Positions 24,602 through 34,918 of a DNA stretch of 64,000 nt are shown in pieces. Numbering within the stretch: position 1 is the stretch's first letter; each line of letters begins with the position of its first letter. The position numbers and the translations under genes are program-made. Under the pieces are notes generated by a model that was given only the letters and a program-made list of their open reading frames with translations, did not search any database and was not told the DNA's origin. The DNA is from Cellulomonas sp. C5510 (GTDB lineage Bacteria > Actinomycetota > Actinomycetes > Actinomycetales > Cellulomonadaceae), in contig NZ_CP081862.1 in NCBI RefSeq assembly GCF_019797765.1, positions 310,001 through 374,000 of the forward strand, read 5' to 3'.

Positions 24602-26194
24602 TCAGTGCTCCCGCTGCGTGTACGCCGGCACGTGCTCGGCCCGCGCGGCTGCCGCGAGCGCCCGCACCTGCGCCCGGTCCACCTTGCCGGTGCCCGTCGT
24701 CGGCAGCTCCGTCAGCAGCACGAGCCGGCGCGGCAGCTTGTGGCGCCCGACGGAGCGGGCCGCGTGCTCCCGCAGCTCGGCGAGGTCCGGCACGGTGCCG
24801 GGCGCCGGCACGACGACGGCGGTGACGGTCTCCCCCCACACCTCGTCCGGGAGGCCGACGACGGCGCACGCCCCCACGCCGGGTCCGCCCTCCAGCGCCG
24901 CCTCGACCTCGGACGGGTGCACCTTCTCCCCGCCGGTGTTGATGACATCGCCGATCCGGCCGCGGATGCGGTAGCTGCCGTCGGCGTCCCGGACCGCGAC
25001 GTCGCCCGTGCGCAGCCAGCCGGGCTCCGGGAACGCCCGCGCCGTCGCGTCGGGGTCGCGCCAGTAGCCGCTCGTGACCTGCGGCCCTGAGACCCAGAGC
25101 TCCCCGGCCGTGCCGGGCCTGTCGACGTCCGCACCCGTGGCCGGGTCGACCAGCCGGAGCCGGATGTGCGCGAGCGGCAGCCCGACGGTGGTGCCGCGCT
25201 CGCGGACCCGGCCCCGCGGCACGCAGGTGCACGCCGGCGCGGTCTCGGTCATGCCCCACGACTGCTGGAGCGGGACGCCGCGCTCGAGGAACCGGTGCAG
25301 CAGCGTCTCGGGCAGCGGTGCGCCGCCGACGAGCGCCGTGCGCAGGCTGGTCAGGTCGAGGGCGTCGAACCACGGCGAGCGGGCCAGTGCCGCGTACATC
25401 GCCGGGACGCCGAACAGCGACGTGACGCGGTGCCGCGCGATGTCGTGCAGCACGTCGTCGGCGTCGAACGCGCGTCGGACGACGGCCCGGCCGCCGGTCG
25501 CGAGCGTGCGGAGCGTCAGGCCGTTCAGGCCGCCGATGTGCGACATCGGGGCGACCGCGAGCGTCGTGCCGCCGCGGCCGGTCCGGAAGGCGGCGTCCGC
25601 GCCGACGGCGCTCCACCAGAGGTTGGCGTGCGTGAGGACGACACCCTTGGGGCGCCCGGAGGAGCCGGAGGTGAACAGCAGCAGCGCGGTGTCGTCGGCC
25701 CGCGCGCCGCCGACGGTACCGGGGTCGTCGCCCGCGAGCAGCGCCGACCACCGCTGCCACGAGCCGTCGACCGCGACGGGCGTGCCGGCGAGGGGGTCGT
25801 CGTCGACCTGCACGCGCACGACGCGGGGGCCGCCGCGCCACGCCGCGACGGCGTCGACGTGGGCCGGCTCGGCGATGACGGCGGCCGGCTCGCACCGGTC
25901 GAGCAGCACCGCGAGCTCGGCGGGCGCGCTGCGGAAGCCGAGGGGCACGGCCACCGCGCGCAGCGGTGCGCACGCCAGGACGGTCAGCAGCAGCGAGGCG
26001 CTGTTGCGGCCGACGTGCACCACCCGGTCGCCCCGTGCGACCCCCGCCCGGGCGAGCGCCGCCGCGAGCGTGCGGACCTGCCGCGCGAGGTCACCGGCGG
26101 AGGTGGTCGCCGTGCCGTAGACGAGGCTCGGCGTGGCGGGCTGGTGCGCAGCGACCTGCTCGAGCGCCGCGGCGGTGCTCAGGTCGACGTGCAT
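24602..26194 (-). CDS. AMP-forming acyl-CoA ligase (FadK/CaiC-like)
   Basis: Activates a carboxylic acid to its CoA thioester through an acyl-adenylate. 530 residues with the A3 loop [22 protein letters not shown]5 [13 protein letters not shown]7 [22 protein letters not shown]'s region, A8 [16 protein letters not shown], and the catalytic C-terminal Lys in [12 protein letters not shown]. The short N-terminus sets it apart from Acs. The ATG at 26194 has a GGAGGA site. It is the last gene of a minus-strand set with the MFS carrier and CoA-transferase. Substrate unknown; the neighbourhood suggests a short or unsaturated acid. Confidence 0.88.
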
Positions 26195-26264
26195 CGGTCC
26201 TCCGGGTGCGGGACGGCCGGCCCGGCCCACGGGGGTGGGGGCCGGGCCGGCCGGGTCCATCGGG

Positions 26265-27539
26265 TCAGCGGGCCACGGCGGGGGCGGGTGCCGGGGCCGG
26301 CGAGGCCGCGGACATCCGCTCGAGGTGGGCGCGCTGGATGCGGCGGAACAGGGTGGCCAGGCCGGCGCCGACGACGGCGAGCACGATGGCGATGACGAAC
26401 GGGACGGTGAAGTCGCCGTCACGCTCGGCCGCCATGCCCGACGCCAGGCGCGGCGCGAAGAACGCCGACACCGAGTAGGCGACGAACACCATCGCGTAGT
26501 TCACGCCCTGGTACCGCGGGCCGAAGTTGGTCATCGTCAGTGCCGGGAAGACGCCCATGACACCACCGAAGCACAGACCCAGGCCGATGATGCCGATCGC
26601 GAAGCCGACGGTCGAGCCGACGGTGACGAGGACCAGCAGGCAGAGCGCGACGACGCCGTAGATGATCGTCAGCGCCGTGGTGTAGCCCAGGCGGTCGGAG
26701 ACGGCGCCCCACACCACGCGGCCGAGTGCGTTGCAGGCGGAGTACACCGACACGAACACGGCGGCGGTCGCCGCGGTGAGGCCGAACATGTTCTGGCCGA
26801 TCGGCGACGCGTTGGAGGCGATCATGAGGCCCGAGAACGCGCCGAACGCCATCATGACGAAGATCGCCCAGAACGCCGGCGTGGCCAGGGTGCGCTTCCA
26901 GGTCACGGCGAGCGCCGGGCGCCCGGCCGGCGGGGTCCAGCCGGCGGGTGCGTACCCGACCGGCGCGGCCCGCAGGAAGAACGAGGCCACGACGACGACC
27001 ACCGCGTAGACCGAGCCCATCCACACGAACGCGGAGCGCACGCCCGGGCCGGCGATGATCGCGTTGGCGACGGGCGCCGCGATCACGGACGCCGCCCCCA
27101 TGCCGCCGGTGATGAGGCCGGCCGCCATGCCGCGGCGGTCCGGGAACAGCTTCATCGTGTTGCCGAGGCAGCCGGAGTACGCCAGGCCCTGCCCGAGGCC
27201 GGCGAGCACGCCGTACGACAGGTACAGGGCGGTGAGCGAGGTGGCCGCGCCGGTCAGCGCGAAACCGGCCGCGAACATGAGGCCGCCGACCAGCACGAGC
27301 CAGCGGGTCCAGCCGCGGTCGGTGAGGATGCCGCCCACGATCATCGGGATCGGGCCGACCGCCGCGTTGATGGTGAAGGCCATCATCACCTGCGGCATGG
27401 TCCAGCCGTGCGTCGCGCTGAGCGGGCCGGCGAGCACGGAGAACGCGTAGATGGCGCCGGTGCACATGAGCACGGCGACGGAGGACCAGAGCACGGCCCA
27501 GCGGTTGATGGTGGGGGGCGACGACGTCGTCGAGGTCAT
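26265..27539 (-). CDS. MFS transporter, oxalate/formate-antiporter (OxlT) type
   Basis: 424 residues with twelve hydrophobic segments. It belongs to the OxlT-like MFS group, as judged from WTMPQVMMAFTINAAVGPIPMIVGGILTDR's opening region, GLGQGLAYSGCLGNTMKLFPDRRGMAAGL, and GRVVWGAVSDRLGY in the second half. These carriers exchange or import small organic acids. The C-terminal Ala/Pro tail is unstructured. Lying between the acyl-CoA ligase and the CoA-transferase, it is likely to import the acid they activate, or to exchange it for the reduced product. Start ATG 27539 has a GGAAAGG site. Confidence 0.9.
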   Translation of the reverse strand: MTSTTSSPPTINRWAVLWSSVAVLMCTGAIYAFSVLAGPLSATHGWTMPQVMMAFTINAAVGPIPMIVGGILTDRGWTRWLVLVGGLMFAAGFALTGAATSLTALYLSYGVLAGLGQGLAYSGCLGNTMKLFPDRRGMAAGLITGGMGAASVIAAPVANAIIAGPGVRSAFVWMGSVYAVVVVVASFFLRAAPVGYAPAGWTPPAGRPALAVTWKRTLATPAFWAIFVMMAFGAFSGLMIASNASPIGQNMFGLTAATAAVFVSVYSACNALGRVVWGAVSDRLGYTTALTIIYGVVALCLLVLVTVGSTVGFAIGIIGLGLCFGGVMGVFPALTMTNFGPRYQGVNYAMVFVAYSVSAFFAPRLASGMAAERDGDFTVPFVIAIVLAVVGAGLATLFRRIQRAHLERMSAASPAPAPAPAVAR

Positions 27540-27622
27540 GGGGGGTGTGCCTTTCCGGCGAGTGCGGTTGACGCGGGAGAGGTGGTGCGGGTGGTGCGGG
27601 GGCGTGGTGCCCCGGGGCGGGG

Positions 27623-29179
27623 TCAGCCGACGATGTCGGCCAGCCCGCCCCACTTCTCGGAGAACAGGCCGGCGGGCATCGTCCGCAGGTCCTCGGCGAC
27701 GTCGGGGACGAAGTCCATCTGGTCGAGCACGTCGCGCTGCAGGTCGATCCCGGGGGCGACCTCGGTGACCGTCATGCGGCCGTCGCGCAGCTCGAGCACG
27801 GCACGTTCGGTCACGTAGAGCACGCGCTGGCCGGCCTTCGTGGCGACCGCCCCGGAGAACGTGATCTGCTCGACGTCGGCCAGGAACTTGCGGGCACGGC
27901 CCTCGGTGACGATCCGCAGGGTGCCGTCCACGACCTCGGTCTCGAGGCCGCCGGCGGTGAACGTGCCGGCGAACACCAGGGTGCGGGCGGACTGGGAGAT
28001 GTTGATGAACCCGCCGCAGCCCGCGACGCGGCTGCCGAACTTCGACACGTTGACGTTGCCGTGGGCGTCGGTCTGCGCGAGGCCGAGCACCGCGACGTCG
28101 AGGCCGCCGCCGTCGTAGAAGTCGAACTGCGCGTGGTGGTCGACGAGCGCCTCGGGGTTCCAGGAGTGGCCGAAGTCCTTCAGGCCCGCGGGCACGCCGC
28201 CGACGGCACCGGCCTCGGTGGTCCCCAGGATCAGGTCGCTGACGCCCTCCTCCGCGGTGACCGAGCCGACGTCGCAGGGGATGCCGACGCCGAGGTTGAG
28301 CACGGCGCCCCGGCGCAGCTCCATGGCCGCGCGGCGCGCGATGACCTTGCGCTCGCCCAGGGGGATCGAGGCGACGCTCGACAGCGGCACGCGCAGCTGG
28401 CCGGAGAACGACGGGTTGTAGTGCGTGTTCTCGGTCTGGAAGTGGTTCTCCGGCTCCGAGACGACGATGTAGTCGACCAGCAGGCCGGGGACCTTGACGT
28501 CGTTGGGGTCGAGCGAGCCGGCCTCGGCCACGGACTCGACCTGCGCGATGACGATGCCGCCCGAGTTGTGCACGGCCTGCGCGATGGGCAGGACCTCCAT
28601 CTTGAGGCCCTCCTTGCTCATCGTGAGGTTGCCGTGGGTGTCCGCGACGGTGCCGCGGACCAGACCGACCTGGATCGGGAACGAGGGGTAGAACAGCCAC
28701 TCCTCGCCGGCGAGCTCGATCACCTGGACGTAGTCCTCGGTGGTGCAGGCGGACATCCGCGCGCCCTCGACCCGCGGGTCGACGAACGTGCCGAGCCCGA
28801 CCTTGGTGACGACGCCGGGCCGGTGCGCGGCGATCTCCCGGTAGAGCTGCGTGATGACGCCCTGCGGCAGGTTGTAGGCCTCCACGGCGTCCTCGGAGAT
28901 GAGCTGCGCGAACGCGGGGGAGGCGATCGCGATGCCGCCCATCCAGCGCTTCACCAGGCCGCGGTGGCCCCAGTGGCTCATGCCCTTGTCGCGGCGGTTG
29001 CCGACCGCGCTGGCGTGCACGACGTGCAGGGCGCTCGGCGCCCCGGTCGCGAGGAAGCGCCGCTCGACCGCGGCCATCGTCTCCTCGTTCACGCACGACA
29101 GGCCGAAGCCGGACAGGGCCACGGTGGCGCCGTCCGGGATCAGGGCGGCGGCTTCCTCGGCAGTGATGATCTGGGCCAC
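27623..29179 (-). CDS. class I acyl-CoA:carboxylate CoA-transferase (YdiF/Pct-like)
   Basis: Swaps CoA between an acyl-CoA and a free acid. 518 residues, the fused alpha-beta form like propionate CoA-transferase and E. coli YdiF. The first domain has SGFGLSCVNEE and GTFVDPR. The second has the catalytic-Glu motif GTTEAGAVGG (E322) and GVGIPCDV. With a dehydrogenase/reductase next door it could recycle CoA from product to incoming substrate without ATP, as CarA does in caffeate reduction. The GTG start at 29179 follows AAGGAG. It is transcribed divergently from the dehydrogenase. Confidence 0.92.
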   Translation of the reverse strand: MAQIITAEEAAALIPDGATVALSGFGLSCVNEETMAAVERRFLATGAPSALHVVHASAVGNRRDKGMSHWGHRGLVKRWMGGIAIASPAFAQLISEDAVEAYNLPQGVITQLYREIAAHRPGVVTKVGLGTFVDPRVEGARMSACTTEDYVQVIELAGEEWLFYPSFPIQVGLVRGTVADTHGNLTMSKEGLKMEVLPIAQAVHNSGGIVIAQVESVAEAGSLDPNDVKVPGLLVDYIVVSEPENHFQTENTHYNPSFSGQLRVPLSSVASIPLGERKVIARRAAMELRRGAVLNLGVGIPCDVGSVTAEEGVSDLILGTTEAGAVGGVPAGLKDFGHSWNPEALVDHHAQFDFYDGGGLDVAVLGLAQTDAHGNVNVSKFGSRVAGCGGFINISQSARTLVFAGTFTAGGLETEVVDGTLRIVTEGRARKFLADVEQITFSGAVATKAGQRVLYVTERAVLELRDGRMTVTEVAPGIDLQRDVLDQMDFVPDVAEDLRTMPAGLFSEKWGGLADIVG

Positions 29180-29212
29180 GGGCGGACTCCTTCGTCGGCA
29201 GGACGCTGCACC

Positions 29213-29319
29213 GCCGACTATTTCGGACCGGGGCAGTCGGTAATTGGGACCATCGTCCCCGAGGTCGTCGGACAATTTCGGACTGCCGGAGTCGGTAATT
29301 GGGACGATGGTCCCCGCAC
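29213..29319. promoter_or_regulatory. bidirectional control region with two GGGAC-N4-GTCCC sites
   Basis: Two related units of about 46 bases lie between the CoA-transferase and the dehydrogenase. Each contains TTTCGGAC, then AGTCGGTAATT, then a palindrome: GGGACCATCGTCCC (29246-29259) and GGGACGATGGTCCC (29301-29314). The palindromes are exact reverse complements of each other with centres 55 bases apart, about five helical turns. GTAATT may serve as a -10. Candidate binders are a DosR/DevR-type regulator (core GGGAC-N4-GTCCC) or the TetR at 34025. The repeats are directly visible; regulator identity is inferred. Confidence 0.7.
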
Positions 29320-29422
29320 GGCGCGCGACGCCCGGCCCACGATGGATCCAGCGCGGGCCGCGAGCCCGCCCATCCCCGGACGCGACGACGCGCCGGCGCC
29401 ACCACCAGGAGGGTGCAGCACC

Positions 29423-30565
29423 ATGGACTTCGGCCTGACGGACGAGCAGGAGCTCCTGCTCTCGAGCCTCGACGACCTGCTCGAGCGCGAGTGCCCCGAG
29501 TCGTACATCGCGGAGCTCGACGCGACGCACACACCGCCGACGTCGTTCCGCAAGGCCCTGCACGAGGCCGGCTTCGCCTCGCTGGGCTTCCCCGAGGAGT
29601 ACGGCGGCACGCCGGTCGACGCCACCACGCTCGTGCTGCTCGCGGCGCGCGTCGCCCGCCAGGGCCTCAACAACGGCTACGGCCTCGAGCTCCTCCAGGC
29701 CATGGACATCCTCGAGTTCGGCAACGAGGAGCAGAAGCAGGAGATCCTCGGCCTGCTCGCCGACGGCGACGTGCCGTTCGCGCTCGGGTTCACCGAGCCC
29801 GGCGCCGGCTCGGACAACGCCGCGATGGCGACCACCGCCGTCCACCACGACGGCATGGTGACCTTCAACGGCACCAAGACCCTCATCACCAACGCCCTGC
29901 AGTCCAAGTACCTGCTGCTCATGGCGAAGGACCCGTCGGTCGCCGACCCGCGCGCCGCCATCTCGATGTACCTGGTGCCGATGGACGCCCCGGGCGTCTC
30001 GACCAACCGCCTCGAGAAGATCGTCTGGCACATCTCCGACTCCTGCGAGATCTTCCTCGACGACGTCACGCTGCCCGAGTCCTGCCTGGTCGGCGTCAAG
30101 GGCGCCGGCTTCAAGCAGCTCATGCGCAACTTCGAGATGGAGCGCCTCGTCATCGCCTCGCAGTGCTGGGGCCTGGCGGAGTGCGCGTTCGAGGACGCCG
30201 CCACCTACGCCGCCCAGCGCGTGCAGTTCGGCAAGCCGATCGGCCAGTTCCAGCTCATCCAGCAGAAGCTGACCGACATGGCGATCAAGATCGAGAACAT
30301 GCGGAACTTCGTCCTGAAGACCGCGTGGATGCTCGACCAGGACGTGCCGCTCAAGAGCCAGGGCGCGCTGTGCAAGCGCTACTGCGCGATGGCCGCGTTC
30401 GAGGTCGCCGACGAGGCGATGCAGATCTTCGGCGGCGTCGGCGTCACCGTCGGCACCCGCGTCTCGCGCCTGTGGCGGGACATCCGCGGCCACCGGTTCG
30501 GCGGCGGCACCGACGAGATCATGGTCCACATCGCCGGCCGGCAGATCGTCAAGGACCACAGCTGA
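29423..30565 (+). CDS. acyl-CoA dehydrogenase/enoyl-CoA reductase, CaiA/YdiO-like
   Basis: Flavoprotein that interconverts acyl-CoA and 2-enoyl-CoA with electron-transfer flavoprotein. 380 residues, similar along its length to E. coli CaiA: MDFGLTDEQELLLSSLDDL at the start, FTEPGAGSD, DSCEIFLDDVTLP, CAFEDAATYAAQRVQFGKPIGQFQLIQ, and RISRLW-like RVSRLWRDIRGHR. At the MCAD catalytic-Glu position it has Gly (G361 in GGGTDEI), as CaiA does. E240 in FEMERLVIA matches the alternative Glu position of isovaleryl- and long-chain-type enzymes. Start ATG 29423 has AGGAGGG upstream. First gene of an operon with fixABCX; the direction of reaction is not fixed by sequence. Confidence 0.92.
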   Translation: MDFGLTDEQELLLSSLDDLLERECPESYIAELDATHTPPTSFRKALHEAGFASLGFPEEYGGTPVDATTLVLLAARVARQGLNNGYGLELLQAMDILEFGNEEQKQEILGLLADGDVPFALGFTEPGAGSDNAAMATTAVHHDGMVTFNGTKTLITNALQSKYLLLMAKDPSVADPRAAISMYLVPMDAPGVSTNRLEKIVWHISDSCEIFLDDVTLPESCLVGVKGAGFKQLMRNFEMERLVIASQCWGLAECAFEDAATYAAQRVQFGKPIGQFQLIQQKLTDMAIKIENMRNFVLKTAWMLDQDVPLKSQGALCKRYCAMAAFEVADEAMQIFGGVGVTVGTRVSRLWRDIRGHRFGGGTDEIMVHIAGRQIVKDHS

Positions 30566-30610
30566 GCACCCGCTGACCCCACCGACCACCGCCTGCCGGA
30601 GGAGAACCCC

Positions 30611-31387
30611 ATGAAGATCGTCGTCGCCTACAAGTGGGCGCCGAACCCCCAGGACGCCGAGGTGCGCCCGGACGGCACCGTCGACTGGAGCCGCGCCAAG
30701 GGCGCCGTGAGCGAGCACGACCCCGTCGCGTTCGAGGTCGCGCGCCGCCTCGCGGACGCCACCGGCGGCGAGGTCGTCGCGCTGTCCGTCGGCCCGGCGT
30801 CGTCCGACACCCCGCTGGCCCGCAAGGCCGCCCTGTCCCGCGGGCCGGAGCGCCTGGTGCTGGTCGCCGACGACGCCCTCGCCGGCGCCGGCAGCACCGC
30901 CACCGCCGCGGTGCTGGCCGCCGCGGTGCGCGCCATCGGGGACGTCGACGTCGTCGTCACCGGCCCGGAGTCCGTCGACAACGGCGACCGCCAGGTCCCG
31001 ATGACGCTGGCCGGCCACCTCGGCTGGCCGGGCCTCGGCGACGTCGGCGACGTGCAGGCCGCCGACGGCGGGCTCGTCGTCGAGCGCGCCACCGACCGCG
31101 GCGTGCAGGTGCTCGACGTCACCGGCCCGGCCGTGCTGGCCGTCGCCGCCGACGCCGTCGTGCCGCGCGTCCCCGGGATGAAGGACATCCTCGGGGCCGC
31201 CAAGAAGCCGACCGACGTGCTCGCGCTCGCCGACCTCGACGTGCCCGCCCCGGTCGCCGTGACCGAGGTCGTCGGCTCCTCCCGGCCGGCGCCCAGCGCC
31301 CGCGGCCGGAACGTCATCACCACCGCCGACCCGGCTGCCGCGGCCGCCGAGCTGGTCGACGCGCTGCGCGCCGCCGGCGCGCTGTGA
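30611..31387 (+). CDS. fixA: electron-transfer flavoprotein beta subunit FixA
   Basis: Beta subunit of an ETF of the FixAB type, 258 residues, carrying electrons between the acyl-CoA enzyme and FixCX. It has KIVVAYKWAPNPQDAEV, ARRLADATGGEVVALSVG, and VVTGPESVDNGDRQVPMTLAGHLGWPGL for AMP/FAD binding. It is separated by 45 bases from the dehydrogenase, with GGAGGAG before the ATG. The Fix name reflects family, not nitrogen fixation: no nif genes are present. Confidence 0.92.
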   Translation: MKIVVAYKWAPNPQDAEVRPDGTVDWSRAKGAVSEHDPVAFEVARRLADATGGEVVALSVGPASSDTPLARKAALSRGPERLVLVADDALAGAGSTATAAVLAAAVRAIGDVDVVVTGPESVDNGDRQVPMTLAGHLGWPGLGDVGDVQAADGGLVVERATDRGVQVLDVTGPAVLAVAADAVVPRVPGMKDILGAAKKPTDVLALADLDVPAPVAVTEVVGSSRPAPSARGRNVITTADPAAAAAELVDALRAAGAL

Positions 31388-31422
31388 CCGCCGGACGCTT
31401 GCAGCCAGAAGGAGCAGAGACG

Positions 31423-32364
31423 ATGAACGAGAGCACGCAGGACGTCCTGGTGCTGGTGGACGGCGACGCGGCGGTCGCGGGCCCTGTCGCGGTGGCCCGC
31501 GCCGCCGTGTCGCAGACCCCGGGCGCCACGGTCACCGCCGTGGTGGTCGGTGCGCGGCCGGTGGCCGACGCGGTCGCCGCGTCCGGCGTCGACCGGGTGC
31601 TGTGGCTGGGCGACGCCGAGGGCGCGCCCGCCGAGGCCTGGGCCGGCGCGGTCGCCGACGCGGTCGCGCAGGCCGCGCCGCGGCTGGTCGTGGCCCCGGC
31701 CCGTGACGGCGGGCGCGCGCTCGCCGGCGCGGTCGCCGCGCGCTGCGGGGCGCCGGTCCTCACCGGGGTCACCGAGGTGACGCTGGAGGACGGCGCGGTC
31801 GTCGTGCAGCGTGACGTGCACGGCGGCATCGCGGTGCGCACCGAGCGCGTCACGGGCGGCCCGGCCGTCCTGACCGTCGCGCCCGGCGGGTCCTCCGAGC
31901 CGGTCGCGCCCGTCGCCGTCGAGGAGGCCGGTGCTGCCCCGTCGACCGCCGTGCGGGTCCGCGAGGAGCGCGCCTCCGGGCGTGAGGCCGTCGACCTGGG
32001 CGGCGCCCGCGTGGTCGTCGGCATCGGCCGCGGCCTCAAGGCCCGCGAGGACCTGGCGATCGTGGAGCGGCTCGCCGCGGCGCTCGGGGGCGAGGTCGCG
32101 TGCTCGCGGCCGCTCGCCGAGGGCCACGACTGGCTGACGAAGGACCGCTACATCGGCATCTCCGGGCAGCACGTCGCCCCCGACCTGTACGTGGCCGCGG
32201 GCATCTCCGGCCAGGTGCAGCACATGGTCGGCGTCGCCGGGGCCAAGGTCGTCGTCGCGATCAACTCCGACCCGGACGCCCCGGTGTTCGCCCAGTGCGA
32301 CCACGGCGTCGTCGGCGACCTCTACGCCGTCCTGCCCGCGCTCGCCGCGGCGCTGGAGGCCTGA
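31423..32364 (+). CDS. fixB: electron-transfer flavoprotein alpha subunit FixB
   Basis: Alpha subunit of the ETF, 313 residues. The C-terminal FAD-binding domain is clear: VVVGIGRGLKAREDLAIVERLAAALGGEVACSRPLAEG, ISGQHVAPDLYVAAGISGQVQH's region, and AINSDPDAPVFAQCDHGVVGD. The N-terminal domain (about 1-170) is more diverged. ATG 31423 with AAGGAG at good distance. It lies between fixA and fixC with short gaps. Confidence 0.92.
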   Translation: MNESTQDVLVLVDGDAAVAGPVAVARAAVSQTPGATVTAVVVGARPVADAVAASGVDRVLWLGDAEGAPAEAWAGAVADAVAQAAPRLVVAPARDGGRALAGAVAARCGAPVLTGVTEVTLEDGAVVVQRDVHGGIAVRTERVTGGPAVLTVAPGGSSEPVAPVAVEEAGAAPSTAVRVREERASGREAVDLGGARVVVGIGRGLKAREDLAIVERLAAALGGEVACSRPLAEGHDWLTKDRYIGISGQHVAPDLYVAAGISGQVQHMVGVAGAKVVVAINSDPDAPVFAQCDHGVVGDLYAVLPALAAALEA

Positions 32365-32369
32365 GCACC

Positions 32370-33683
32370 ATGGCCGACGAGCCCGACTTCGACGTCGTGG
32401 TGGTGGGGGCCGGCCCGGCCGGCTCCGTCACCGCGCACCAGCTGGCGTCCGAGGGGCTGTCCGTCGCGCTCATCGAGCGCGGCGAGGCGCCCGGGGCCAA
32501 GAACCTGTCCGGCGGCGTGCTCTACGGACGCGTCCTCGACCAGGTGTTCCCCGGGTTCGCCGACCAGGCCCCCGTGGAGCGCCGGATCACCCGGCACGTC
32601 ACGACGTTCCTCACCCCGGACTCCGCGGTGTCGCTCGACTACTCGTCGCAGCGGCTGTCCGAGCCCGTGAACGCCGTCACCGTGCTCCGCGCGAAGTTCG
32701 ACCCGTGGCTCGCCGAGCGGGCCGAGGAGGCCGGGGCGTACGTCATGCCCGGCGTCCGGGTCGACGAGCTGCTGACCGAGCCCGGCACCGGGCCCGGCGG
32801 CAAGCGCGTCGTCGGCGTCCGCGCCGGCGAGGACGAGCTGCGCGCTCGCGTCGTCGTCGCGGCGGACGGGGTCAACTCGTTCCTCGCCCGCGAGGCCGGC
32901 CTGCGGGACAAGGAGCCGCTGAACCACCTCGCGGTCGGCGTCAAGGCGGTCGTCCGGCTGCCGCGCACCGTCATCGAGGACCGGTTCGGCCTCACCGGCG
33001 ACGAGGGCGCCGCCCACGCGCTGGTCGGCGACTGCACCCGCGGCGTCGGCGGCGGGGCGTTCCTCTACACGAACGCCGAGTCGCTGTCCGTCGGCGTCGT
33101 GCTGCGGCTCGACGACCTCGTGGCGTCCGGCCACACGGCCGCGGGCATCTTCGAGCACCTCATGGAGCACCCCGGCCTCGCGCCCTACCTGCGGGACGGG
33201 GAGATCGTCGAGTACGGCTCCCACTTGGTGGCCGAGGGCGGGCTCGACATGCTCGGCACCCTCGCGGCCGACGGCCTCGTCGTCGTCGGCGACGCCGCGG
33301 GGCTGACGATCAACTCCGGGCTCACGGTCCGCGGCATGGACCTGGCCATCGGCTCCGGCATCGCCGCGGGCGCGGCGGTCGCCGAGGCGATCCGGTCCGG
33401 TGACGTCAGCGCCGGGGGGCTGGCCGGCTACCGGCGGCGTCTCGACGAGGGCTTCGTCGGCAAGGACCTGCGGACGTACGCGAAGGCGCCGAAGTTCCTC
33501 GAGCGCCCCCGCATGTACGGGGCGTACGGCGAGCTCGCCGCCGACCTGTTCCACGACGTGTTCAGCCTCGACACCACGCCGCGCAAGCACCTCGCGGCTG
33601 TCGCCCGGACCGCTCTCGGGCGCTCCGGGATCGGGCTCAAGGCGGTGCTCAGCGACGGATGGGCGGGGGTGCGTGCCCTGTGA
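32370..33683 (+). CDS. fixC: ETF:quinone oxidoreductase-like flavoprotein FixC
   Basis: FAD-containing partner that links ETF to the quinone pool with FixX. 437 residues: VVVVGAGPAGSVTAHQLASEGLSVALIERGE at the N-terminus, GAKNLSGGVLYG, and the distal FAD motif VVVGDAAGLTINSGLTVRGMDLAIGSG. It starts five bases after fixB. The absence of the iron-sulfur C-terminus found in eukaryotic ETF-QO is expected, because FixX supplies it. The stop overlaps fixX (GTGA). Confidence 0.93.
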   Translation: MADEPDFDVVVVGAGPAGSVTAHQLASEGLSVALIERGEAPGAKNLSGGVLYGRVLDQVFPGFADQAPVERRITRHVTTFLTPDSAVSLDYSSQRLSEPVNAVTVLRAKFDPWLAERAEEAGAYVMPGVRVDELLTEPGTGPGGKRVVGVRAGEDELRARVVVAADGVNSFLAREAGLRDKEPLNHLAVGVKAVVRLPRTVIEDRFGLTGDEGAAHALVGDCTRGVGGGAFLYTNAESLSVGVVLRLDDLVASGHTAAGIFEHLMEHPGLAPYLRDGEIVEYGSHLVAEGGLDMLGTLAADGLVVVGDAAGLTINSGLTVRGMDLAIGSGIAAGAAVAEAIRSGDVSAGGLAGYRRRLDEGFVGKDLRTYAKAPKFLERPRMYGAYGELAADLFHDVFSLDTTPRKHLAAVARTALGRSGIGLKAVLSDGWAGVRAL

Positions 33684-33964
33684 AGGCGCAGACGATCCCG
33701 GAGCGGCTCGGAGCCAACCGGTACGAGGTCGACGAGGAGGAGTCCCACATCGTCGTCGACCAGGAGCTCTGCCGGACCACCGGCACGGGCAAGCGGATCA
33801 TCGCGGTGTGCCCCGCCGGGGTGTACTCCGAGCGGGACGGGCAGATCGACGTCGAGTACGCCGCCTGCCTGGAGTGCGGCACCTGCCTGGCGGTCGCGGC
33901 CCCCGGCGCCCTCACGTGGCGCTACCCGCGCGGTGGGTTCGGGGTGTCCTTCCGGGAGGGCTGA
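33680..33964 (+). CDS. fixX: ferredoxin-like protein FixX
   Basis: 94-residue ferredoxin partner of FixC. It follows E. coli FixX closely: GANRYEVDEEESHIVVD, VCPAGVY, ACLECGTCLAVA, and the terminal YPRGGFGVSFREG. The CPAG and CLECGTC cysteines bind one 4Fe-4S cluster. The GTG start at 33680 overlaps the fixC stop, which decides the start over an upstream in-frame ATG at 33659. Last gene before a strong bidirectional terminator. Confidence 0.93.
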   Translation: MKAQTIPERLGANRYEVDEEESHIVVDQELCRTTGTGKRIIAVCPAGVYSERDGQIDVEYAACLECGTCLAVAAPGALTWRYPRGGFGVSFREG

Positions 33965-33968
33965 CGGT

Positions 33969-34019
33969 CCGCCGCCCTCCGGGGCGGCGGCAGGGGTGCC
34001 GCCCCGGCGGGCGGCACCC
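33969..34019. terminator. two back-to-back hairpins between convergent fixX and tetR
   Basis: CCGCCGCC at 33969-33976 pairs with GGCGGCGG at 33983-33990. GGGTGCCGCCC (33994-34004) pairs perfectly over 11 bases with 34009-34019 around a four-base loop. No U-tract follows, as is usual in high-GC actinobacteria. It should end transcripts from both sides. Confidence 0.75.
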
Positions 34020-34024
34020 GTCGA

Positions 34025-34918
34025 TCACGCAGCGGGCGCGGGTCCTGGTCCAGGGCCCGCGCCCGCTGCTGCGAGCTGCAGGTCCACCATGCGCTCCAGG
34101 TACGCGGGCAGCGTCGACCGGACCCTGTCGATGAGGTGCGGCGGCGTGACCAGCACGTGCATGAGCACGGACCCCTCGATGGCGTCCAGCAGGTGCACCA
34201 CGGAGGTGCCCGCGGGCAGCTCGCCGTCCTCGATGGCCTGCTCGACGCGCTGCCGCTCGCTCAGCACGAACCGGGTGATCGCCTCGTGACGCACCTCCGC
34301 GAGCGGCACCGGGAACGCGCGCGCCTCGACGTAGAGGCGCAGCATCGCCAGGCCGTCCTTGCCGAGGTACAGGTCCGCGCGGCGCTGGGCGTGGGCGACG
34401 AGGTAGTCGCGCAGGGAGCCCGGGACGGCGTCGGGCGCGGCGGCACCGGGGGACGTCGTCGCGGGGGACGTGGCGGCCCGGTCGTCGGGTGCCGCGGCGG
34501 TAGCCGGGTCGGGGGTCGCGCCGGGCGCGGGGGCGGCGTGGCCCGCCGGGGGGTGCGCGAGGGGCCCGGCGTCGGGGGCGGCCGGGCCGGCTGCCGGCGT
34601 CGGCGTGGTCGCGGTGGGCGTCGTCGCCGGCTGCGTGCCGGGCGCGCCGGCCGGGCCGGCGGCGGCCGGGCCGTCGGCGCCCGAGGCGTGCGGGGTGTCC
34701 TGCACCTGACGGAGCGCGTCAGCGAGCAGAGCGGTCTTGTTCGGCCACCGGAGGTAGAGCGAGGACTTGCCCACGCGTGCCCGCGCCGCGACCTCGGCGA
34801 TCGACAGCCCGGTCCAGCCCTTCTCCGCGAACACGTCGAGCACGGCAGCGAGTGCGCGCTGCTCGAGGTCGGGCGACCGGGGACGGCCCGGTGGGCGCTG
34901 GTCGTCCTGGTCGGTCAC
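34025..34918 (-). CDS. TetR-family regulator with long low-complexity insert
   Basis: 297 residues, about 90 more than usual. The HTH lies at about 18-62 (ALAAVLDVFAEKGWTGLSIAEVAARARVGKSSLYLRWPNK region). About 75-166 is a Pro/Ala/Thr/Gly-rich stretch with no predicted fold, and the ligand-binding helical part resumes at SLRDYLVAHAQRRADLYLG and runs to the end. The GTG start has TACCCT six bases upstream, so it is probably leaderless; GGAGG-N5-CCTCC flanks this -10. It is convergent with fixX and probably controls the acyl-CoA module; that link is from position only. Confidence 0.85.
   Translation of the reverse strand: MTDQDDQRPPGRPRSPDLEQRALAAVLDVFAEKGWTGLSIAEVAARARVGKSSLYLRWPNKTALLADALRQVQDTPHASGADGPAAAGPAGAPGTQPATTPTATTPTPAAGPAAPDAGPLAHPPAGHAAPAPGATPDPATAAAPDDRAATSPATTSPGAAAPDAVPGSLRDYLVAHAQRRADLYLGKDGLAMLRLYVEARAFPVPLAEVRHEAITRFVLSERQRVEQAIEDGELPAGTSVVHLLDAIEGSVLMHVLVTPPHLIDRVRSTLPAYLERMVDLQLAAAGAGPGPGPAPAA

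Follow-up and report, generated by a model that had tools for sequence, protein, structure and literature searches.

A conserved nine-gene block of Cellulomonas sp. C5510 as a candidate module for enoate reduction with menaquinol

The window analysed here is a stretch of 64,000 nucleotides of Cellulomonas sp. C5510 (contig NZ_CP081862.1, positions 310,001 to 374,000). At 24602..34918 it holds nine genes, encoding a ligase, a carrier, a class I CoA-transferase, an acyl-CoA dehydrogenase (ACAD), FixA, FixB, FixC, FixX and a convergent TetR; all nine proposed by an earlier sequence-only reading are present at their coordinates. Which reaction does such a set serve, and in which direction do its electrons flow? 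The answer favored here, with a probability of about 0.55, is a self-contained respiratory module that reduces enoates. The case for reduction, held at that same level, is built on the branch of the family to which the ACAD belongs, the potential of the quinone, the presence of both ligase and transferase, a probable exchanger, the lack of hydratase and thiolase genes in the block, and a separate pair of electron-transfer flavoprotein (ETF) genes in the genome.

In the proposed mechanism, a small unsaturated monocarboxylic acid would enter by the carrier, of the monocarboxylate transporter (MCT) type, probably swapped for the reduced acid. The ligase would form the first CoA thioester with ATP spent, after which the YdiF-type transferase would hand the CoA of the reduced product on to the acid that enters next; later turnovers would be ATP-free because the transferase recycles CoA from the product. 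The ACAD, of the CaiA/YdiO branch, would reduce the double bond with electrons passing from menaquinol to FixC/FixX, then to FixA/FixB and to the ACAD, without bifurcation, and TetR would switch the divergent promoters. The acid would most likely serve as an electron sink under scarce oxygen. As substrate, a short monocarboxylate is probable; hydroxycinnamate, crotonate and acrylate are candidates.

The ACAD (29423..30565, forward strand, 380 residues) belongs to the CaiA/YdiO branch, as had been supposed. In a midpoint-rooted tree of 52 rows, built without CarC, AcrC and isovaleryl enzymes, it lies inside a 44-row CaiA/YdiO clade (support 100/100) and, within this, in an actinobacterial clade of 20 rows (support 100/95). 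The opposite side of the root holds Bcd, the short-chain acyl-CoA dehydrogenase (SCAD) and FadE3, together with five proteobacterial and Bacteroidota enzymes. The objection foreseen earlier, that the ACAD might group with ordinary butyryl or isovaleryl enzymes, is answered in part by its position outside the Bcd/SCAD clade, in a tree that lacks isovaleryl enzymes. The other mark of an ordinary butyryl or short-chain enzyme, a Glu at the SCAD base site, is also lacking: Glu240 is present, and Gly361 occupies the SCAD site. Among the 49 non-PDB rows of the tree, Glu at 240 is universal, and position 361 is Gly in 44 and Ala in five; the three PDB rows carry the reverse, Gly240 and Glu361. Isovaleryl- and long-chain enzymes are known to place their base at the 240 site. 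The arrangement seen in the cassette ACAD extends beyond the CaiA/YdiO clade, since the five proteobacterial and Bacteroidota rows outside that clade have it too.

Within the branch, the block had been described as a counterpart of the E. coli ydi locus. The enzyme set is indeed alike, but strict orthology does not stand: the ACAD narrowly misses the NCBIfam YdiO model (529.2, cut-off 537), which a second ACAD of the C5510 genome passes, and YdiO pairs with the CaiA clade (support 90/85), the cassette clade not being its nearest neighbor. The CaiA model is not passed either (354.8, cut-off 540), and the cassette proteins remain below the thresholds of the acryloyl-CoA reductase models AcrC (224.9, cut-off 640), AcrB (77.8, cut-off 475) and AcrA (110.6, cut-off 600). 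As regards a reductase of the CarC clade, the match of the ACAD to PDB 6fah_C (E 1.6e-42) ranks under those to SCAD and Bcd. Weaker NCBIfam matches, to 3-sulfinopropanoyl-CoA desulfinase (184.4) and to cyclohexanecarboxyl- and cyclohexanecarbonyl-CoA dehydrogenase (187.0 and 184.8), raise the idea of an ACAD fold with another chemistry, such as desulfination or ring dehydrogenation of a special acyl-CoA. Those scores are far under the cut-offs (575-650) and an enzyme linked to FixABCX should carry out a net redox reaction, which makes this explanation improbable.

Four genes follow the ACAD gene on the forward strand. FixA (30611..31387, PF01012) and FixB (31423..32364, PF00766 and PF01012) are ETF beta-like and alpha-like, respectively. 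FixC (32370..33683) is a flavoprotein resembling ETF:quinone oxidoreductases, with NF007450 at 416 bits and NF007542 (FixC) at 394 bits, both below cut-off. FixX (33680..33964; NF011993, 76.9 bits, cut-off 166) is ferredoxin-like, has ligands for one [4Fe-4S] cluster, and starts at a GTG overlapping the fixC stop. Such a composition, together with PDB relatives that include CarD and the bifurcating 7koe, could indicate a bifurcating enoyl-CoA reductase/FixABCX system making reduced ferredoxin or flavodoxin, of the CarCDE or diazotroph type. The Group 2 bifurcating motifs are described as RXGV and GXXSPTXV in the small subunit and RPXFGG in the large one (PMC10734219). In alignments to 4kpu_B, 6fah_B and 5ol2_A, cassette FixA lacks both of its motifs, and FixB has RDVHGG in place of RPXFGG, the Arg being retained. 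FixX has five Cys and one complete ligand set, against nine Cys in the bifurcating 7koe_D, and a second [4Fe-4S] cluster is absent. The motifs are missing from E. coli fixABCX too: E. coli FixA and YdiQ, like the C5510 paralogues, lack both FixA motifs, E. coli has His for the Arg of RPXFGG, and FixX and YdiT have four and five Cys. Bifurcation is thus very unlikely, as is a mechanism like that of caffeate CarCDE; with these signatures missing, a plain menaquinol-ETF-ACAD wire would be the best reading of the electron path.

In two relatives, L097 and L100, FixX has eight and nine Cys, as in bifurcating EtfX and unlike the cassette family. The L097 ACAD lies in the 20-row clade of the cassette and that of L100 in the same superclade; taken together, the type of electron partner may have switched.

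The presence of a ligase and a CoA-transferase as an activation set beside an ACAD wired to FixABCX, also part of the sequence-only reading, agrees with the gene content. The AMP-forming acyl-CoA ligase (24602..26194, reverse strand, 530 residues) matches PF00501 (277 bits) and PF13193 (66 bits), and none of the 25 NCBIfam models among the matches listed is above its cut-off. The class I CoA-transferase (27623..29179, reverse strand, 518 residues) is YdiF-like (PDB 2ahu, E 1.6e-132): its TEAGAVGG segment aligns to VETGPIGG of YdiF and keeps the glutamate, presumably the catalytic residue. Hydratase, dehydratase and thiolase genes are absent from the block between ligase and TetR. Their absence, noted earlier for this locus, extends to its 14 complete relatives described below.

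The carrier (26265..27539, reverse strand) belongs to the major facilitator superfamily (MFS) and had been taken for OxlT-like. It is instead of the L-lactate/SfMCT type: NF049980 is passed with 392.7 bits (cut-off 320), oxalate/formate models fail (219.3, cut-off 374.85; 180.5, cut-off 335), and the best solved relative is SfMCT (PDB 6g9x, E 2e-51), ahead of the oxalate:formate antiporter. The carboxylate-binding residues Y119 and R280 are kept in C5510 and in all 18 aligned relatives, and N276 in C5510 and 17 of the 18; Y331 of SfMCT is Phe in all aligned carriers. The proton sites have fared differently. H250 is replaced by N or Q, and D257 by a gap, S or T, in C5510 and all 18 relatives. 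At the D378 position C5510 and L055 carry Glu and L057 carries Asp, with the acidic residue lost from the remaining 16; Phe replaces Y383 in C5510. For SfMCT mutants, about 12% of transport is reported to remain in H250A and none in D257A, D378A and Y383A (PMC6573034). The loss of H250 and D257 suggests acid/acid exchange rather than proton symport, with the caution that an acidic residue is retained at 378 in C5510. An aromatic substrate may also be considered since SfMCT is reported to bind TSA, a benzene-ring ligand (PMC6573034).

Is the block a unit, or a chance neighborhood? A search of 200 family genomes, with an ACAD of at least 80% identity as the criterion for a cassette, yields 19 genomes besides C5510, whose 19 loci were all fetched. 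As the gene caller had the window as its training set and overlooks low-GC genes, tblastn of the cassette proteins was also used. The same gene order, sought in other Cellulomonadaceae at the suggestion of the sequence-only reading, is found with all nine genes and the same relative orientation in 14 of the 19 loci (L055 and L057 to L069), without any extra gene called from ligase to TetR. Between ligase and TetR, then, these loci lack the hydratase, the 3-hydroxyacyl-CoA dehydrogenase and the thiolase that a full beta-oxidation unit would include. Three further loci end at contig edges (L054, L056 and L039) and show nothing contrary, which leaves two true variants: L070 is devoid of FixABCX, and L071 of ligase, carrier, transferase and TetR. 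The transferase of L068 (G155) is split over two frames, either because the gene is truly frameshifted or through a fault in the assembly, and the same break occurs in the named record L086. The ligase is the least conserved enzyme in L058-L070 (43-55% identity). The flanks of C5510 are common on both sides to L055 and L057 only, and on the left alone to L056; 12 of the 14 complete loci have other flanks, some shared mutually, e.g., by L066 and L067. The block is therefore sharply bounded, its neighbors differing among most loci, and the nine genes form a genuine unit, beyond chance.

Named carriers of the cassette include Cellulomonas hominis, C. cellasea and Actinotalea subterranea. Farther away, an ACAD at E 1e-100 occurs in at least 4 of 297 genomes of the order search and at least 3 of 396 of the phylum search, C5510 included in both; at most six and four candidates, respectively, were scored per genome, which makes the occurrence outside the family a lower bound. 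In distant Actinomycetota many of these genes recur, differently arranged: L092 lacks the transferase, L095 FixABCX, and L096 a carrier or TetR match by tblastn, these arrangements being found in Propionibacteriaceae and Actinomycetaceae. A FixC homologue exists in all eight distant genomes examined, five of which lack FixC on the first stretch fetched (L094, L095, L101, L102 and L106); the L101 stretch ends soon after the ACAD, and the FixC match in the genome of L102 is partial. Likewise, in G063, where the cassette has lost fixABCX, a separate fixABCX operon lies about 2 Mb off (L161:6630-9958), and the 17 kb retrieved around it contains no ACAD match. At least two ETF alpha genes are present in all 16 cassette-type genomes examined (of 19), and among ten same-genus genomes without cassette, eight have one and two have two.

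The direction of the ACAD reaction is where the favored reading meets its strongest competitor, in which a short saturated, butyrate-like acid is activated by the ligase or by CoA exchange with acetyl-CoA and oxidized to the enoyl-CoA, electrons leave via FixABCX to menaquinone, and housekeeping FadB/FadA finish the pathway. Menaquinone is given as the respiratory quinone of Cellulomonas and Actinotalea (PMC9517587), with a potential of -74 mV (PMC10734219), and the acyl-CoA step, for ETF as the acceptor, is put at about -10 mV (PMC8805022). From these values reduction is favored at standard conditions, although they do not decide the direction; oxidation would be uphill unless oxygen pulls. 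Oxidation would not call for both a ligase and a transferase, the annotation of CaiA, a member of the same superclade, is that of a reductase, and the C5510 genome has a separate ETF pair (L016) that would serve general use. The same genome appears to hold ordinary beta-oxidation genes, namely a 707-residue ACAD-domain protein and a 742-residue crotonase-domain protein, FadE/FadB-like by size and domain only, and a thiolase-like gene read by eye. These could complete the oxidation just described; conversely, the FadE- and FadB-like proteins make the cassette probably unneeded for ordinary beta-oxidation.

Several observations weigh against reduction. Among relatives named from experiment, the one closest in gene set, Salmonella ydiQRSTD, is reported to function in anaerobic butyrate beta-oxidation (PMC13170390); PMC6530103, citing the same work, records the loss of these genes in typhoidal serovars. 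The annotated genes of the E. coli ydi locus also include no hydratase or thiolase. L071 keeps ACAD-FixABCX alone, the transferase frame of L068 is broken, and SfMCT does not transport propionate and butyrate, though they compete with lactate (PMC6573034). Oxidation of a short saturated acid consequently stays a possible explanation, less probable than enoate reduction.

Comparison with known systems refines the picture. E. coli ydiF-ydiO-ydiP-ydiQRST-fadK likewise combines a YdiF-type transferase, a YdiO-type ACAD, a FixABCX-type ETF/quinone partner and an AMP-ligase. By tblastn, the cassette transferase, ACAD, FixA-C, FixX and ligase all match in that one locus, with identities of 42% (transferase), 49% (ACAD), 37% (FixA), 41% (FixB), 45% (FixC) and 39% (FixX). 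The cassette differs from it by its MCT-type carrier, its TetR, its divergent order and an ACAD in an actinobacterial clade of its own. Clostridium AcrABC resembles it as a short-chain enoyl-CoA reductase with ETF subunits, but the cassette proteins are far under the AcrA, AcrB and AcrC cut-offs. In Acetobacterium woodii CarABCDE, transferase, ligase, reductase and ETF are also found together, CarA and CarB having the transferase and ligase roles of this caffeate system. The caffeyl-CoA reductase-ETF complex is described in PMC8805022 as NADH-dependent and bifurcating, whereas the cassette ETF is without bifurcation signatures. The same source presents the enoyl-CoA respiration of Syntrophus aciditrophicus, in which an ACAD is the terminal reductase and electrons pass from quinol via an ETF:quinone oxidoreductase to ETF (PMC8805022); Syntrophus uses EMO and formate cycling where the cassette has FixC/FixX, a transferase and a monocarboxylate carrier.

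E. coli caiTABCDE-fixABCX and the carnitine cluster of P. freudenreichii share with the cassette a CaiA-branch ACAD with FixABCX and a ligase with a CoA-transferase; the class III CaiB, the hydratase and the betaine carrier of these systems (PMC11007987) are absent from the cassette. Reduction of carnitine/crotonobetaine as in cai-fix would draw on the CaiA score of the cassette ACAD and its superclade. That score is below cut-off and the transferase is class I, not CaiB. Furthermore, C5510 has a separate locus of the carnitine type, M3 (L014, contig 2273946-2285891), where CaiA (657.4) and CaiB (658.8, cut-off 413) pass their models beside fixABCX, a CaiC-like protein (503.9, cut-off 651), a MaoC-like hydratase, an alpha/beta hydrolase and two MFS proteins. 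The P. freudenreichii cluster is described with the same gene content (PMC11007987). Carnitine, named earlier among the candidate substrates, is therefore assigned away from the cassette, for which this role is highly improbable.

M3 is not isolated: the C5510 genome counts five ETF alpha genes and five matches to ACAD domains, and FixABCX modules contain three of these ACADs. In M2 (L013, contig 1184207-1199092), the ACAD that passes the YdiO model (644.4) is accompanied by FixABCX, a CaiB-like transferase, an OYE/BaiCD-like flavoprotein of 696 residues, a crotonase and an 895-residue ligase fused to a metallo-beta-lactamase-type hydrolase. At L015 (contig 1290728-1296019), FixA-FixB stand beside a FAD_binding_2 flavoprotein nearest vinyl phenol reductase VprA (361.4, cut-off 600), along with a LuxR-type response regulator and a HisKA_3 kinase; its sequence is compatible with a possible FixAB-fed ene-reductase working without CoA. 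Taken together, M2, M3 and L015 make double-bond reduction look like a theme of this genome. A route from lactate to acryloyl-CoA was considered separately and rejected, the 2-hydroxyacyl-CoA dehydratase PF06050 being present in one of the 16 genomes examined (G013) and not in C5510.

The TetR-family regulator (34025..34918, reverse strand, PF00440 and PF16859) closes the block and holds the same place in all 14 complete loci. Between the divergent genes lie two copies of an operator-like palindrome, GGAC-N4-GTCC (29247..29258 and 29302..29313, 55 bp apart), conserved in the upstream regions of relatives. Each of the 22 regions counted contains it upstream of the ACAD gene, with 0.21 expected from mononucleotide shuffles; the set comprises C5510, the 18 family loci with transferase, L082, L087 and L089, and leaves out L071, L073, L092, L094 and L095. 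In ten of these regions there are two or three copies, at spacings of 43-62 bp. As the regions are related, this conservation shows constraint and not independent events. The box is absent in L071/L090, which have no TetR, and in L073, L092, L094 and L095; by eye, L073, L094 and L095 show a GGAC...GTCC pair with wider spacing. With one mismatch allowed, the window has four matches, a number reached by 9 of 100 shuffles, hence no excess over chance, and support for the box rests on its conservation. The local TetR would be the simpler reader of these boxes; against it count L092 and L095, with TetR and no box, and L089, with boxes and no clear TetR beside them. The palindrome resembles the OsdR consensus as given in PMC5069765. 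A DevR/OsdR hypoxia box was nevertheless rejected as a firm reading, the exact core GGACSATSGTCC occurring at just five places in the genome, two of them at this locus, against two for a reversed control pattern. A CGGAC-N7-GTCGG repeat (29224..29240, second copy 29279-29295) is a possible part of the control region.

A broader proposal can be put forward tentatively, at somewhat less than even odds: the block would be an undescribed and patchy nine-gene cassette of Cellulomonadaceae and related Actinomycetota for enoate respiration that exchanges acids, spares ATP and does without bifurcation, its electrons running from menaquinol via FixCX and FixAB to a distinct CaiA/YdiO-branch reductase; in this plant-polymer degrader it would be one of several parallel C=C electron sinks (three ACAD-FixABCX modules and a fourth FixAB-flavoprotein pair). 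A literature search for the cassette or Cellulomonas found no published description, which, within open-licence PMC only, is weak evidence of absence. If the proposal is true, cellulose-degrading soil bacteria would respire small unsaturated acids via menaquinol without nitrate or oxygen, with a bearing on fermentation balances in plant decay. The cassette would also provide a compact one-locus test system for the poorly understood ydi family, and the G063 exception separates the reductase from the electron-transfer genes.

To the left of the cassette, the segment 8496-24534 carries genes of arsenic and phosphate-uptake types, as judged by eye. Since the genes beyond it adjoin the ligase directly in L055 and are one gene off in L057, the segment has the look of an island that was acquired or lost there.

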